Source: Roseibium sp. Sym1
GTDB lineage: Bacteria; Pseudomonadota; Alphaproteobacteria; Rhizobiales; Stappiaceae
Direction of reading: 5' to 3'
NCBI RefSeq assembly: GCF_027359675.1
Contig: NZ_CP114786.1
Span: 62,001-126,000 of the forward strand
Length of the DNA stretch: 64,000 nt
In this document: positions 15,511 through 62,186 of the stretch, piece by piece
How positions within the stretch are numbered: the stretch's first letter is position 1
How the letters are laid out: every line of letters starts with the position of its first letter
Position numbers and translations under genes: made by a program
Notes under the pieces: generated by a model
Told to the model about the DNA's origin: nothing
The model's database searches: none
The model's input: only the letters and a program-made list of their open reading frames with translations

Positions 15511-16368
15511 TTAAAGGCCGTAGCGCGCCCACAATGCCCGCTCCTCCACCGACGATATCAGCTCGCCGCCAAGTCCCTCGACCAGTCTGCCATGGTCCAG
15601 ACCGACCCCGACCCCACCCTTGCGGCCGAACAGGCCGCGCGGCGCGGAAATCAGTTTCGGCTCGGTCTTTTCGCCATAGCGCTCCTTCAGGACACCACGC
15701 AGATCGCCGATGGCATCCACCAGGCCCAGCTGGATCGCGGTCCGGCCCGTCCAGAACTTGCCTGTAAACAGGTCCGGGTCCTCGGCAAGCACGTCGCCGC
15801 GGCGGGATTTCACCAGATCGATGAAGGTCTCGTGAATGTCCTGCTGGAGACCTTTCAGGTATTCGATGTCCTCTTCCACTTCCGGCTGGAACGGATCGAG
15901 AATGACCTTCTTCTCACCTGCCGTGTAGACCCGGCGGTCGACACCGATCTTCTTGATCATCTCCGTGAAGCCGAAACCGGCCGCGACCACGCCGATGGAG
16001 CCGACGATAGAGGACGGATCGACAAAGATCTCGTCACCGGCAACCGCGATCATGTAGCCGCCGCTGGCGGCGACATCCTCGACAAAGACGAGAACGTCCT
16101 TTTCCTTCTCTTTTGCAAGATCACGGATACGCTTGAAGATCAGTCGCGACTGGACGGGCGACCCGCCGGGCGAATTGATGATCAGCGCGACGGCCGGCGC
16201 TTTTTTTACCGAGAAGGCCTTTTCGAGAGGAATGGCCGCGGTGGACAGGGACAGAGCCGACTTGATTGGGCCCCCACCGCCGATAGCGCCTTGCAGCCGC
16301 ACGACCGGAATGATGGTCTTGTCGTTGCGAAACGGTTTGGGAAGATAGCTGCGAAGAGTGGAAAGCAC
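15511..16368 (-). CDS. S49 family peptidase (SppA/SohB-like)
   Basis: 285-aa serine peptidase related to signal peptide peptidase, expected to degrade membrane-derived peptides. The ClpP-like fold motifs are visible: ALIINSPGGSPVQS, then VEDVAASGGYMIAVAGDEIFVDPSSIVGSIGV with the catalytic serine expected in ASGGY. LFTGKFWTGRTAIQLGLVDAIG follows. Unlike E. coli SppA it is a single-domain form and has no evident N-terminal membrane helix, so localisation is uncertain. The start is GTG (16366-16368), with AGGG upstream. Confidence 0.9.
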   Translation of the reverse strand: MLSTLRSYLPKPFRNDKTIIPVVRLQGAIGGGGPIKSALSLSTAAIPLEKAFSVKKAPAVALIINSPGGSPVQSRLIFKRIRDLAKEKEKDVLVFVEDVAASGGYMIAVAGDEIFVDPSSIVGSIGVVAAGFGFTEMIKKIGVDRRVYTAGEKKVILDPFQPEVEEDIEYLKGLQQDIHETFIDLVKSRRGDVLAEDPDLFTGKFWTGRTAIQLGLVDAIGDLRGVLKERYGEKTEPKLISAPRGLFGRKGGVGVGLDHGRLVEGLGGELISSVEERALWARYGL

Positions 16369-26836: not shown

Positions 26837-26996
26837 GAAGGCCGGTTGCAGTTTCTTGCCCCCGGTGCAACTGCCTGGGAACAGTACGAGGCTTTCCTCA
26901 TCTGTGCCGGCGTGCGGGCCAAGTTTTCACGGCTTGCCAACCGTGGCTTTTGACGCCCTCAATTGTCCGAGGTTGATCGAAGCACGCTCCGGTTAA

Positions 26997-27257
26997 TACC
27001 AACCGCAATTAATAGGAACCGATCTGATGTCGTTGTTCCGGTTTGCCGGCAAGGCGCGTTGCGCAGGACGGCCTGGTTGGCCGTTCAAGCGGCGCAACGC
27101 CGTCCGGCGGGCCGGAACAGGCCACCGAAGGCCGCGTTTGGAGGCTGTTCTGCCGCGTCGCAGATTTTGGACGATACCCCGTATCGCCCTGCAATCTGCT
27201 CCTTGCCGAACAGCCTCCAAACGCGGTCAGATGGTTTCCTATTAATTGCGGTTGGTA
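26997..27257. mobile_element. MITE-like 261-bp element, copy 1
   Basis: Non-coding element bounded by TACCAACC...GGTTGGTA. Terminal inverted repeats match perfectly for 22 bp and at 29 of 31 positions. A TAA flanks each end (26994-26996 and 27258-27260), the expected target duplication. The interior folds into two hairpins: one at 27035-27118 (arms 27035-27049/27104-27118, 27056-27064/27092-27100, 27066-27073/27079-27086) and one at 27132-27226 (perfect 19-bp arms 27132-27150/27208-27226, then GCAGATT/AATCTGC and GATAC/GTATC). It has no transposase and matches copy 2 at all but 3 positions. Movement in trans by a TNA-targeting transposase elsewhere in the genome is inference. Confidence 0.85.
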
Positions 27258-27619
27258 TAAGCGCTGCCCCAACTAGAAAACCAACATCATGCGTACTATT
27301 TACGGTATTACTGCGTCTATCGAATTCCGCTTTCTTGCCAATATGATAGAAATAATCTGCCGTCGGAATTCGCCCATAAAGTTTTTTTATACCACAATAA
27401 ATAAAGAAAATAATCTCGCCAATTCTCTGAAAAATAATGGCTTCTTGGCACTACCGTAAGTTTGGCCCAATCACATATTCTCGCACCCATGTGGGAAAAG
27501 CTATAAACACACCCGCCAACCCACTGAATTCATGCAGCTTTCTCCTTATCCACATGCCTTCACCCGGCAAAGCGGTTACGTTTGCAGACTCAACTTAGTT
27601 AATTTACTTTTACTTTTGA

Positions 27620-58203: not shown

Positions 58204-60012
58204 TTACCCGACCGAACGGTGCAGGTCGGGCTCCTGCTGGTCCAGCCACAGCTCGATGTCGAAGGCGCTCCTCGGGGGGGAAAAGTAATACCCCTGGAAA
58301 TACCGGCAGCCGCACTTTTCCAGGAAATCGAGTTCCTGGCGCGTTTCGACCCCCTCGGCGAGGACGTCGAGGCCCATTGTGTTCGCCATGGCCAGCATGG
58401 CGCCGGCGATCCGCTGCACCTTCGCATTGGTGTCGAGCCCGGTGATGAACGACCGGTCGATCTTGAGAATGGCGACGGGTGTCTCGATCAGGGTGGCGAT
58501 CGAGGAGTGTCCCGTGCCAAAATCGTCGAGCGCCAGGGCGAACCCGGCCTGCTCAAGGTCGCGACACTGCGCGATGAGCTCCTGGTCGGACTGGTCGAAC
58601 AGGATCGACTCCAGCAGTTCCAGCTGTATGTCGGCCGGGCTGAGACCGGCCTCGGCCAGTTCCCACTGAAGTTCGGAAATGTATTCCAGGGATCTCAGGT
58701 TCGTGGCCGTGACGTTGAGCGACAGCTTGCCGACGGCGCGGCCGTCCTGCTTCCAGGCGCGGAATTGCGCAAAGGCCTTGCGCCGCACCAGCCGGTCGAT
58801 GTCGACCATGATATTCGCCCGTGTGGCGGTTTCCAGGAATCGGACGGGCGCCAGAATGCCGTGTTCGGGATGTTCCCAGCGTGCCAGCACTTCCAGGCCG
58901 CACAAACAGCCTTCGACCGTATCGATCTGGGGTTGGAAATGCGGCACGAACTGGCTGTCGCGAATGGCGGCCTCGATTTCGGAGATGAGCCTGGTTGTCT
59001 CGTCATGACGGGCGACCATGTCCTCGGACAGAAGCTTGACCGCGGACTTCGTGGCCTTGGCGTCGTAAAGCGCGATATCGGAATTCGCGATCAGCCGGTC
59101 CGCACTCGACACATCGCCTGCATTGAACAGGGCTATCCCGATGCTGGCACTGACCGCGCAACGGTGGCCGTTCAGACGGATAGGCCGCCCGATCGAGGTC
59201 AGCAGATCCTGCGCCAGGTCGAGCAGGGTTTCCTCGTTCGGCGGGTCGGCCATGACCAGGGCGAATTCGTCTCCCCCAAGGCGCGCGGGCAAATCGTTCC
59301 AGCCGGCATATTCCTTCAGCACCGACGCCGTCTGTTTGAGGATCCGGTCGCCCGCCGAGTGTCCCAGATTGTCGTTGACCGACTTGAAATCATCCAGATC
59401 GATATGCAGCAAGGCAAAGCGGGCGGTCTGGTCCGGGACCTGCAGCATTTCCTCCAGCCGGCGCTGCAAGGCCCCCCTGTTGGCAATCCCCGTCAGCGGG
59501 TCCTGTGAGGCTCTGCGTTCCGCCTCCACCTTCGCCGACTTGAGTGCGGAGGCCATCTTGTGGCTGTCCTGCAAAAGCGTCCGCTGAGCCTCGAAGGAGT
59601 AAAACAGGTCAATCGAGAAATCATTGGGCTTGAAGTCGGCCTCGGTCAGGCCGAACCGCTCCACCACCTGGGTCAGGTGGCGGCCGAAGGACAGATCGAC
59701 AAAGATCGCGCCCCCGGCCCCCTCCAGGGGAATCGCAACACCCCGGAACTGGATCCCCTTGCCGTCCCTCGAAGCCGCGCTGATGATCAGCTTGGTGCCC
59801 AAGCGCTCCCGGATACCGTTAAAATCCTTGAGGTTGCGCGGACGCTCGACATTGAACACGTCGAGGAAGTCCCGCTGCAGCAAGTCCTGCCCCAATACCC
59901 GCTTCAGGGTCGGCCCGACGCCGTCAATCCGGCCATCTCCAGTCAGGCTGACATGAAGCGGAAACAGCAGGTCCCTTGTGTCTGCAGAGAGATGGAAACC
60001 GTCCGCGATCAA
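58204..60012 (-). CDS. H-NOX-associated GGDEF-EAL enzyme
   Basis: 602 aa. Residues 1-150 form a heme-NO-binding-associated (HNOBA-like) domain (LHVSLTGDGRIDGVGPTLKRVL, DLLQRDFLDVFNVERP, HLTQVVERFGLTEADF), followed by a signalling helix, GGDEF (ARLGGDEF, 246-250) and EAL. The EAL motif is EVL (374-376) but retains the catalytic Glu, with LDDFGTGHSS, KIDRSF and AEGVET intact. No RxxD I-site. Start is TTG 60010-60012 with GGGGG upstream. It follows the H-NOX gene by 31 bp; in studied pairs the NO-bound H-NOX tunes the partner's c-di-GMP activity. Confidence 0.9.
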   Translation of the reverse strand: MIADGFHLSADTRDLLFPLHVSLTGDGRIDGVGPTLKRVLGQDLLQRDFLDVFNVERPRNLKDFNGIRERLGTKLIISAASRDGKGIQFRGVAIPLEGAGGAIFVDLSFGRHLTQVVERFGLTEADFKPNDFSIDLFYSFEAQRTLLQDSHKMASALKSAKVEAERRASQDPLTGIANRGALQRRLEEMLQVPDQTARFALLHIDLDDFKSVNDNLGHSAGDRILKQTASVLKEYAGWNDLPARLGGDEFALVMADPPNEETLLDLAQDLLTSIGRPIRLNGHRCAVSASIGIALFNAGDVSSADRLIANSDIALYDAKATKSAVKLLSEDMVARHDETTRLISEIEAAIRDSQFVPHFQPQIDTVEGCLCGLEVLARWEHPEHGILAPVRFLETATRANIMVDIDRLVRRKAFAQFRAWKQDGRAVGKLSLNVTATNLRSLEYISELQWELAEAGLSPADIQLELLESILFDQSDQELIAQCRDLEQAGFALALDDFGTGHSSIATLIETPVAILKIDRSFITGLDTNAKVQRIAGAMLAMANTMGLDVLAEGVETRQELDFLEKCGCRYFQGYYFSPPRSAFDIELWLDQQEPDLHRSVG

Positions 60013-60964: not shown

Positions 60965-61909
60965 ATGAAAGAACACGTGGAAACCGTCCTGAAGACCGTG
61001 GAATCGCGAACGGCCCCGGCCGTCTCACGGATTGCCGCGTCCTGGCGCCGGTCGATCGAGCGGCACGGTCTGCATCCGGGCGAAAAAAGCGCACCGGTTC
61101 GTGTCGACGGCAGCCAGCTGCGCCAGCGCCTGGACAAGACCGGATCCCTCCTGCAGGTCGCGACCCCGAAACTGGACCAGCTGTTCGGACTCGTCGGGCA
61201 ATCCGGATGCGCCGTTGTCCTGACGGACGCGGAAGGCGTCGTGCTCGACCAGCGCTGCACCGATGCGGATGCGGGTGATTTTCAGGACTGGGGCCTGGCG
61301 GCCGGCGCCGACTGGAGCGAGGCCGCCGTCGGCACCAACGGCGTCGGCACCTGCATTGCCGAGGAAAGCACGGTCATCGTGCACCAGAGCGAGCATTTCC
61401 TGGCCCGCAATGCCGGCCTGAGCTGCATGGATGCGCCCATCTTCGGCCCCGAAGGCCATCTTGCCGGTGCGCTTGATGTCTCCTCGGCACGATCGGACCA
61501 GACCGAAGCCTTCAACCGGCTGATCGCCGCGATGGTTGCCCAGACCGCGCGCCAGATCGAGGTCGACACGTTCCGCGCGGCCTATGCGGACAGCCGCATC
61601 GTCTATGCCCACAAGGATGCCAGCGAAGCGGCCATCCTGCTTGCCGTCGACTCCCATGACATCGTCATCGGGGCGACCCGGGGAGCGCGCAAGGCCTTTG
61701 GCCTCGGCGCCTCCGGTCCGCTTGCCCCGACGCCTGCCTCCGACTTGCTGGGACGCGAAGACGGCCCGACCGGTTTTGAAAAGGCCGAACGGACGGCCGT
61801 CGTCAGGGCGCTGACACGGGCGAAGGGCAATGTCTCCGAGGCCGCCCGAAGCCTCGGCGTCGGCCGCGCCACCCTTTACAGGCGCATGAAACGGCTCGGG
61901 GTCGACTGA
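60965..61909 (+). CDS. GAF domain Fis-type regulator lacking the sigma-54 ATPase domain
   Basis: 314-aa regulator related to AcoR-type activators. N-terminal PAVSRIAASWRRSIERHGL, a GAF domain (about 60-200: VVLTDAEGVVLDQR, WSEAAVGTNGVGTCIAEE, CMDAPIFGPEGHLAGALDVSS), a PAS-like linker and a C-terminal Fis-type helix-turn-helix (ERTAVVRALTRAKGNVSEAARSLGVGRATLYRRMKRL). The AAA+ domain that normally contacts sigma-54 is absent, so it should act through sigma-70 promoters. Its TGA stop (61907-61909) is duplicated on the far side of the inserted element. Confidence 0.85.
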   Translation: MKEHVETVLKTVESRTAPAVSRIAASWRRSIERHGLHPGEKSAPVRVDGSQLRQRLDKTGSLLQVATPKLDQLFGLVGQSGCAVVLTDAEGVVLDQRCTDADAGDFQDWGLAAGADWSEAAVGTNGVGTCIAEESTVIVHQSEHFLARNAGLSCMDAPIFGPEGHLAGALDVSSARSDQTEAFNRLIAAMVAQTARQIEVDTFRAAYADSRIVYAHKDASEAAILLAVDSHDIVIGATRGARKAFGLGASGPLAPTPASDLLGREDGPTGFEKAERTAVVRALTRAKGNVSEAARSLGVGRATLYRRMKRLGVD

Positions 61910-62170
61910 TACCAACCGCAATTAATAGGAACCGATCTGATGTCGTTGTTCCGGTTTGCCGGCAAGGCGCGTTGCGCAGGACGGCCTGGTTGGCCGTTCA
62001 AGCGGCGCAACGCCGTCCGGCGGGCCGGAACAGGCCACCGAAGGCCGCGTTTGGAGGCTGTTCTGCCGCGTCGCAGATTTTGGACGATACCCCGTATCGC
62101 CCTGCAATCTGCTCCTTGCCGAACAGTCTCCAAACGCGGTCAGATGGGTTCCTATTAAGTGCGGTTGGTA
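61910..62170. mobile_element. MITE-like 261-bp element, copy 2
   Basis: Same length and limits as copy 1, differing at 62127, 62148 and 62159 only. It is flanked by TGA on both sides (61907-61909 and 62171-62173), a 3-bp target duplication of TNA form like the TAA of copy 1. The left TGA is the stop codon of the regulator gene. One difference (62127) turns a G-C pair of the large hairpin into G-T and keeps the fold. Carries no ORF of its own. Confidence 0.85.
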
Positions 62171-62186
62171 TGAGCTTTCGCGGACC

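Follow-up and report, generated by a model that had tools for sequence, protein, structure and literature searches.

The 64,000-nucleotide stretch of Roseibium sp. Sym1 DNA analysed here (the window) carries two copies of a mobile element of 261 bp, and its two internal hairpins are shown to be two diverged, inward-facing copies of one imperfect hairpin of approximately 78 nt. An earlier reading of the same DNA, made from the sequence only, had described the element and its two hairpins; it is added here that the hairpins are one inverted unit, that this unit recurs class-wide between other ends and that the insertions favour stop codons. In the best reading of these observations the element belongs to a superfamily of miniature transposable elements (MITEs) carrying an RNA element that would work in 3' UTRs in either orientation. 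On balance, we favour the view that the MITE is driven in trans by an IS630-family transposase and that its paired inward hairpin units have an RNA role in 3' UTRs.

The two copies and their insertion sites

The two copies in the window (Table 1) have the same length and limits, and by direct comparison differ at element positions 218, 239 and 250 only. The terminal inverted repeat (TIR) is perfect over 22 bp in copy 1 and over 11 bp in copy 2, and in both copies 31 of the first 36 terminal positions match. Hairpin 2 has a perfect 19-bp arm pair when read by eye, and the minimum free energy (MFE) fold pairs 17 of these. At -168.1 kcal/mol this fold is far from chance, as 200 shuffles gave -98.5 (sd 4.9). 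None of the ORF translations within the element looks credible. On all these points (two 261-bp copies with three differences, the 22-bp repeat of copy 1, the two-hairpin interior with one 19-bp stem and the absence of a credible ORF) the sequence-only reading is borne out. Searches against Rfam returned no match in the window at gathering scores, none at E 0.05 in 18 loci, and in three loci just two matches at chance level (E 0.63 and 0.77).

Table 1. Features of the two element copies in the window, with the basis of each call.
Feature	Position	Strand	Basis
Left 3-bp target duplication TAA, copy 1	26994..26996	.	Flank read and TNA statistics
MITE copy 1, family A, 261 bp	26997..27257	+	Sequence, fold, genome copies
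Outer stem P1, 5' arm (TIR: 22 bp perfect, remainder imperfect)	26997..27026	+	Fold, consensus pairs
Outer stem P1, 3' arm	27228..27257	+	Fold, consensus pairs
Hairpin unit 1, inward, sense on +	27038..27115	+	Model R1, 85.6 bits (unit itself in the model); unit alignment
Linker with conserved GGCCACCGAAGGCCG core	27116..27140	+	Alignment of representatives
Hairpin unit 2, inward, sense on -	27141..27217	-	Model R1, 78.5 bits (unit itself in the model)
Right 3-bp target duplication TAA, copy 1	27258..27260	.	Flank read
314-aa ORF; copy 2 is inserted at its stop TGA (61907-61909)	60965..61909	+	Own gene call
Left target duplication TGA, copy 2 (stop codon)	61907..61909	.	Flank read
MITE copy 2, family A, 261 bp	61910..62170	+	Sequence; element-free sites in relatives
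Hairpin unit 1 of copy 2	61951..62028	+	Model R1, 85.6 bits
Hairpin unit 2 of copy 2	62054..62130	-	Model R1, 77.7 bits
Right target duplication TGA, copy 2	62171..62173	.	Flank read

Two further features of the window were recorded. The GANTC motif, the cell-cycle methylation site, occurs 71 times in positions 1-64000 versus approximately 225 times predicted by base composition, which is a threefold depletion. In addition, a 31-nt stretch is repeated at 16011-16041 and 59688-59718 with 87% identity.

The 7.26-Mb genome holds 12 full-length copies of the element, namely copy 1, ten copies 98-99% identical to it and one 84% identical, together with a rearranged copy (L014) and fragments. Among 101 genomes searched, 38 gave matches at E <=0.001 (33 among the 45 genomes of the genus, counting the own genome, and 5 elsewhere); many of these are partial, and at least 15 genomes have a nearly full-length one among the matches listed. 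Copy numbers in the relatives are lower bounds since only seven candidates per genome were scored. Looking for further copies had been proposed as a check on the idea of a miniature transposable element, and the idea is confirmed by the 12 full-length copies, the TIRs and the duplications. When plasmids and phages were searched by blastn with the element itself, there was no match; plasmid searches with four related elements led to matches in Terrarubrum, Agrobacterium and Thalassospira (all Alphaproteobacteria), the fourth element giving none. Two derivatives were also seen. One copy of the own genome (L073, contig position from 433521, approximately 1.37 kb) is without most of hairpin 2, and its right end is interrupted by another insertion sequence (IS), the transposase of which was recognised by eye only. 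The other (L071, 2935591-2935632) is a 42-bp palindrome of just the two element ends with flanks TAA/TAA, and looks like a minimal deletion derivative.

The flanking triplets are TAA/TAA for copy 1 and TGA/TGA for copy 2. From them it had been claimed that the copies have 3-bp TNA duplications and are separate insertions, not a segmental duplication; the first claim holds across the family, and the second is judged right, each copy having its own triplet. Eighty-two candidate loci were fetched, 14 of which were dropped for want of recognisable ends, leaving 68 with both ends placed; these copies are partly non-independent, as the flanks suggest that L035/L096 and L085/L089 are each one shared insertion. 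In 43 of the 68 copies the two flanking triplets are the same, and in none does the agreement extend over four bases, so the duplication is 3 bp, TNA. There is TNA on both sides in 53 copies, with the middle base equal in 43 of the 53 versus 22.5 expected.

The comparison with empty sites, another of the proposed checks, points the same way. In ten relatives that lack copy 2 its site aligns with TNA counted once; three of these sites are gap-free beside it (L138, L147, L153), six are one base longer and one (L137) is seven longer. A duplication of TA only would require five extra bases in the empty site. For the left flank of copy 1 no match beside the site was found among the genus matches listed. 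The mobility of the element is well supported.

A hairpin unit in inverted pairs

The fold was compared across 29 representatives with mutual identity below 93%, which are 61-100% identical to copy 1; 25 of them are 259-263 bp long and the remaining four 248, 253, 254 and 266 bp. As compensatory changes had been named as a check, it is of relevance that 65 of the 89 consensus pairs show pair-preserving changes on both sides, a covariation count that is inflated by relatedness. Pairing cells amount to 93.1%, against 78.5% in shuffles and 30-42% when the alignment is slid. The column profile of hairpin 1 scores 34.6 against the reverse complement of hairpin 2, compared to 13.4 for shuffled columns (sd 2.3, maximum 21.1 of 150) and 12.5 for the same-strand comparison. 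In single copies, where the comparison took in a few terminal-stem bases, the likeness of the two hairpins is less even, with z above 4 in 16 of the 29 and of only 2.4 in copy 1.

The unit is not confined to the family of the window copies, here called family A. A second family of MITEs (B), with at least 12 copies in the own genome (L195-L206), has ends (C)TAGAGCGTTTTCCGATCAA.. or similar (CTAGAGC-type) and carries the unit of family A; forty family A units from both positions and four units from this second family align over approximately 78 positions. The bases conserved most strongly include A15, G16, A60 and C61 of unit 1, which sit at an internal loop and a bulge of the MFE fold. They correspond to columns 17, 18, 116 and 117 of the unit alignment (A3), the former two being conserved in 60/60 units and the latter two in 59/59.

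A covariance model of the unit (R1) was restricted to 13 inner pairs. With this model the unit was found in 33 of 385 genomes of a class sample (own genome included; 24 families by count) and in 15 of 398 genomes of a phylum sample; four of these 15 lie outside the class, and one of the four carries an inward pair. Of 37 loci examined, 36 have a unit at E <=0.001. All 23 adjacent unit pairs are inward, with linkers of 23-39 nt, and the other 13 loci have no second unit at the same threshold. The ends differ among the 19 loci long enough for reading. The inward pair outside the class lies at positions 2763803-2763986 of genome G884 (L255), and the superfamily therefore crosses class borders. 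Single units were also seen on a contig of a viral collection (L245, 3617-3694, 77 bits) and, as a weak match (29 bits, E 0.001), on a Terrarubrum flagellatum plasmid between the genes of the glucitol/sorbitol PTS components IIC and IIB (L248, 1496-1572). A unit-pattern scan of a named genome collection gave no matches, and nothing is concluded from this zero.

The two strands of the unit have not changed alike. In unit 1 the ratio of G-U to A-C cells is 102:9, or 26:7 without wobble-rich columns. Unit 2 read on the + strand gives 6:40 without the junction column 142/240 and 34:40 with it, and 40:6 on its own sense strand (again without that column). Folded as RNA, the sense strand is the stabler one in 59 of 60 class-wide units, by -8.1 kcal/mol on average, these units having been found by a model that itself scores G-U above A-C at its 13 pairs; in family A the sense strand is stabler in 20/20 of each unit. 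The terminal stem, used as a control, has no strand preference (18/29, +0.2 kcal/mol). The strand bias of each unit implies that the unit is maintained in folded form as a single strand, read from its end inwards. This single strand under selection is probably RNA, and the earlier suggestion of possible action in RNA was right as a possibility.

Because DNA folding parameters favour the sense strand too (55 of the 60 units), single-stranded DNA also has to be considered. The unit could then work like REP/REPIN hairpins or attC sites, with a host or transposon protein recognising the folded strand in replication or transfer. REPINs are mobilised by RAYT transposases and have a GTAG or CGTC tag; they consist of imperfect hairpins in inverted pairs, in which extra-helical bases are conserved, and in this they are similar to the pairs described here. 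The ends and the 3-bp duplication, however, look like the work of a DDE transposase on double-stranded DNA, and we regard a role as single-stranded DNA as improbable.

A more serious alternative, to which we nevertheless give only a minor share of credence, is that of an ordinary MITE with a palindromic interior. Symmetry and compensatory changes would in that case stem from DNA processes such as cruciforms, template switching and arm-to-arm correction, without any RNA role, and siting at gene ends would reflect harmlessness. The arms of the terminal stem indeed covary without strand bias (17 G-U and 23 A-C cells, about equal), and siting off promoters is expected of any tolerated insert. Arm correction, however, yields no strand bias, yet each unit is biased on its own sense strand. 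The same explanation leaves out of account that internal-loop and bulge bases are among the most conserved, and that the unit pair is retained in many families whose ends differ.

An IS630-family element as candidate driver

An autonomous IS with the termini of the element had been proposed as something to look for. A pattern search of the genus for the element ends led, among the matches listed, to end pairs approximately 1.16 kb apart. They delimit an IS of 1162-1167 bp with ends TACCAA (once TACCAG), complete in some relatives, the interior of which comprises two ORFs. Of these, orfA contains HTH domains, and orfB, which by reading of the sequence would be in the -1 frame after six consecutive A, contains a DDE_3 domain. 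The domains are HTH_33, HTH_32 and DDE_3 (PF13358, PF13592, NCBIfam NF033545, transpos_IS630). Both the orfA and the orfB parts are called IS630 transposase by NCBIfam, orfA below the whole-protein cut-off and orfB above it. The first ORF is disrupted in one locus (L130). Of 151 relatives, 24 have DNA matches to the IS, including 13 of the 45 in the genus. The own genome has none and also gave no DDE_3 match; the copies of the own genome are for this reason without a visible driver.

The IS resembles the MITE in its flanks and in one of its ends. Identical TNA was found in 5 of the 7 copies with both flanks read (three TTA, two TAA), the others being TTT/TTA and TGA/TAA; an eighth copy, L169, was left out of this count. 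Beyond the first six bases the right IS ends agree with the MITE end at 17, 18, 18, 17 and 15 of 24 positions (shuffled maxima 17, 15, 15, 16 and 16), which is above the shuffled maximum in three of five and equal to it in one. The left ends are hardly alike, with 17, 13, 14, 13 and 15 of 24 (shuffled maxima 16, 17, 15, 15 and 16), above the maximum in one of five only. No hairpin unit was found at E 0.5 in six loci of the IS630 element. For four unpaired or interrupted element ends of the own genome, a partner at the distance expected of an IS was seen solely around the nested IS of L073, which is inserted inside a copy and was set aside as a driver.

IS630 elements are known to duplicate TA and a TNA duplication is unusual for them, while TNA duplications are known from the IS5/IS1031 group. 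Both the MITE and the five IS copies above show the 3-bp TNA, not the TA of IS630 type. It had been suggested earlier that an IS5-family transposase of the IS1031 type could move the element. The duplication as such fits that group, the own genome has no DDE_3 match and another IS is nested in L073. The sole autonomous element with such ends and TNA flanks that the searches by element ends brought up is nevertheless of the IS630 family, so within these searches the suggestion is not supported, and we hold it for very unlikely. Judging from sequence, the candidate driver is likely to be the IS630-family IS rather than an IS5/IS1031 element. Its transposase would recognise the TACCAA-type ends, duplicate the TNA target and move the MITE in trans. 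The IS itself adds to the IS630 family an element with a TNA duplication.

Siting at gene ends and comparison with known repeats

Siting was evaluated with own codon-usage gene calls, which were trained on the window and applied to other genomes too. None of 25 copies in the own genome (13 of family A, 12 of family B) lies between divergent genes, 13 being between tandem and 12 between convergent ones; in the window 10 of 42 intergenic regions are divergent. The neighbouring genes, by reading of their translations, appear to encode a chemotaxis receptor, a DEAD-box helicase, a sigma-54 activator and an aldehyde dehydrogenase.

Of the 68 family A copies, 19 (6 of the 13 in the own genome) have as their flanking TNA the stop codon of an ORF that is coding-like and at least 60 codons long; copy 2 is such a case (Table 1). 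Since any TNA target contains a stop triplet on one strand or the other, noncoding TNA sites are the fair control. Among such sites a stop codon is met in 53/503 (10.5%) in the window (p 5e-5) and in 85/1485 (5.7%) in the flanks of the family A loci (p 5e-9); the resulting expectation of 6-11% would rise further if promoter-side sites were closed to insertion. These matched controls were used instead of displaced sites (0/68 at six distances) and of a 7.2% figure, both unmatched. At TAG-type ends a G belonging to the element comes after TA. The TAG of this junction terminates a coding-like ORF in 8 of 12 family B copies and in 9 of 20 class-wide loci, while among noncoding TA sites in the window the figure is 39 of 291 (13%); seven class-wide loci with other ends were left out, and loci in which no TAG could be read counted as misses. 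A count of stops within 8 bases (19/39, against 6, 5, 2 and 2 at unmatched displaced sites, and 5-19/39 with a mean of 13.5 at stop-forced displaced sites) was not used.

Purifying selection alone could account for the siting at gene ends. The preferred reading, that of a MITE with an RNA role in 3' UTRs, is as follows. TAA and TGA, read on either strand, are both TNA sequences, so that an element inserting into a stop codon would restore it and leave the protein intact; the element, found at such stops, would become the 3' UTR. The unit is present once per direction, so a transcript entering from either side would meet a sense-strand unit first. There the unit may act as RNA, be it as a protein-binding site, a processing site or a transcript-end hairpin. 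Such an action would allow the element to persist at gene ends without harm or to some benefit, and could be the reason why the unit pair is conserved though the ends differ between families. A wider version of this proposal, which we put forward only tentatively, would have a mobile, orientation-independent RNA cassette, i.e., an inward hairpin pair with ends exchanged between transposase systems, spread through Alphaproteobacteria and other classes; its TNA or TA+G targets would land on stops, and each insertion would be a 3' UTR under shared RNA-level control.

The usual view of bacterial MITEs is that of decaying IS fragments whose interior is arbitrary. In the present case it is the interior that is conserved and the ends that vary between families, which suggests selection on the effect of the element after insertion. 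Siting at stop codons offers a simple reason for the tolerance of such elements and makes their use as portable 3' UTRs testable. No description of the element was found in the literature searched, from which many subscription papers were missing.

Several known repeats share parts of this picture. REPINs and BIMEs with RAYT transposases are likewise intergenic and form imperfect hairpins in inverted pairs, whereas the element described here ends in inverted repeats and duplicates 3 bp of its target. The CcrM-associated intergenic repeats (CIR) of Caulobacter are alphaproteobacterial, intergenic, conserved between species and made of two linker-joined stem-loop arms; in the accessible text they are approximately 110 bp long, marked by GANTC and only partly MITE-like (PMC2229807). 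Identity with CIR, which would call for a conserved GANTC in a hairpin loop, was rejected, as GANTC is not enriched here: the 29 representatives have 6 sites compared to 8.4 expected at the rate of the window. In Correia/NEMIS elements, too, the RNA hairpin of a MITE has been proposed to affect the adjacent mRNA via RNase III, but by the same partial account these have 24-bp TIRs with TA ends, and their stem loop is formed by the paired ends without arms (PMC2229807).

Two systems come closest. QMITE2 of Coxiella burnetii is a MITE located mainly in 3' untranslated regions, with alphaproteobacterial relatives and a stable RNA fold; the passages at hand give it 7-9 bp direct repeats, as opposed to the 3-bp duplication here, and other TIR and core sizes, so that it is set apart by description, not by sequence (PMC5896051, PMC10969869). 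RUP of Streptococcus pneumoniae is a small intergenic MITE for which the transposase of IS630-Spn1 has been proposed to act in trans via shared terminal repeats; RUP differs in being 107 bp long and in having targets that contain TA, and the portion of the text consulted describes no inverted pair of conserved units (PMC2229807). The element of Roseibium behaves like RUP with IS630-Spn1 and, in its siting, like QMITE2, but the features compared separate it from both.
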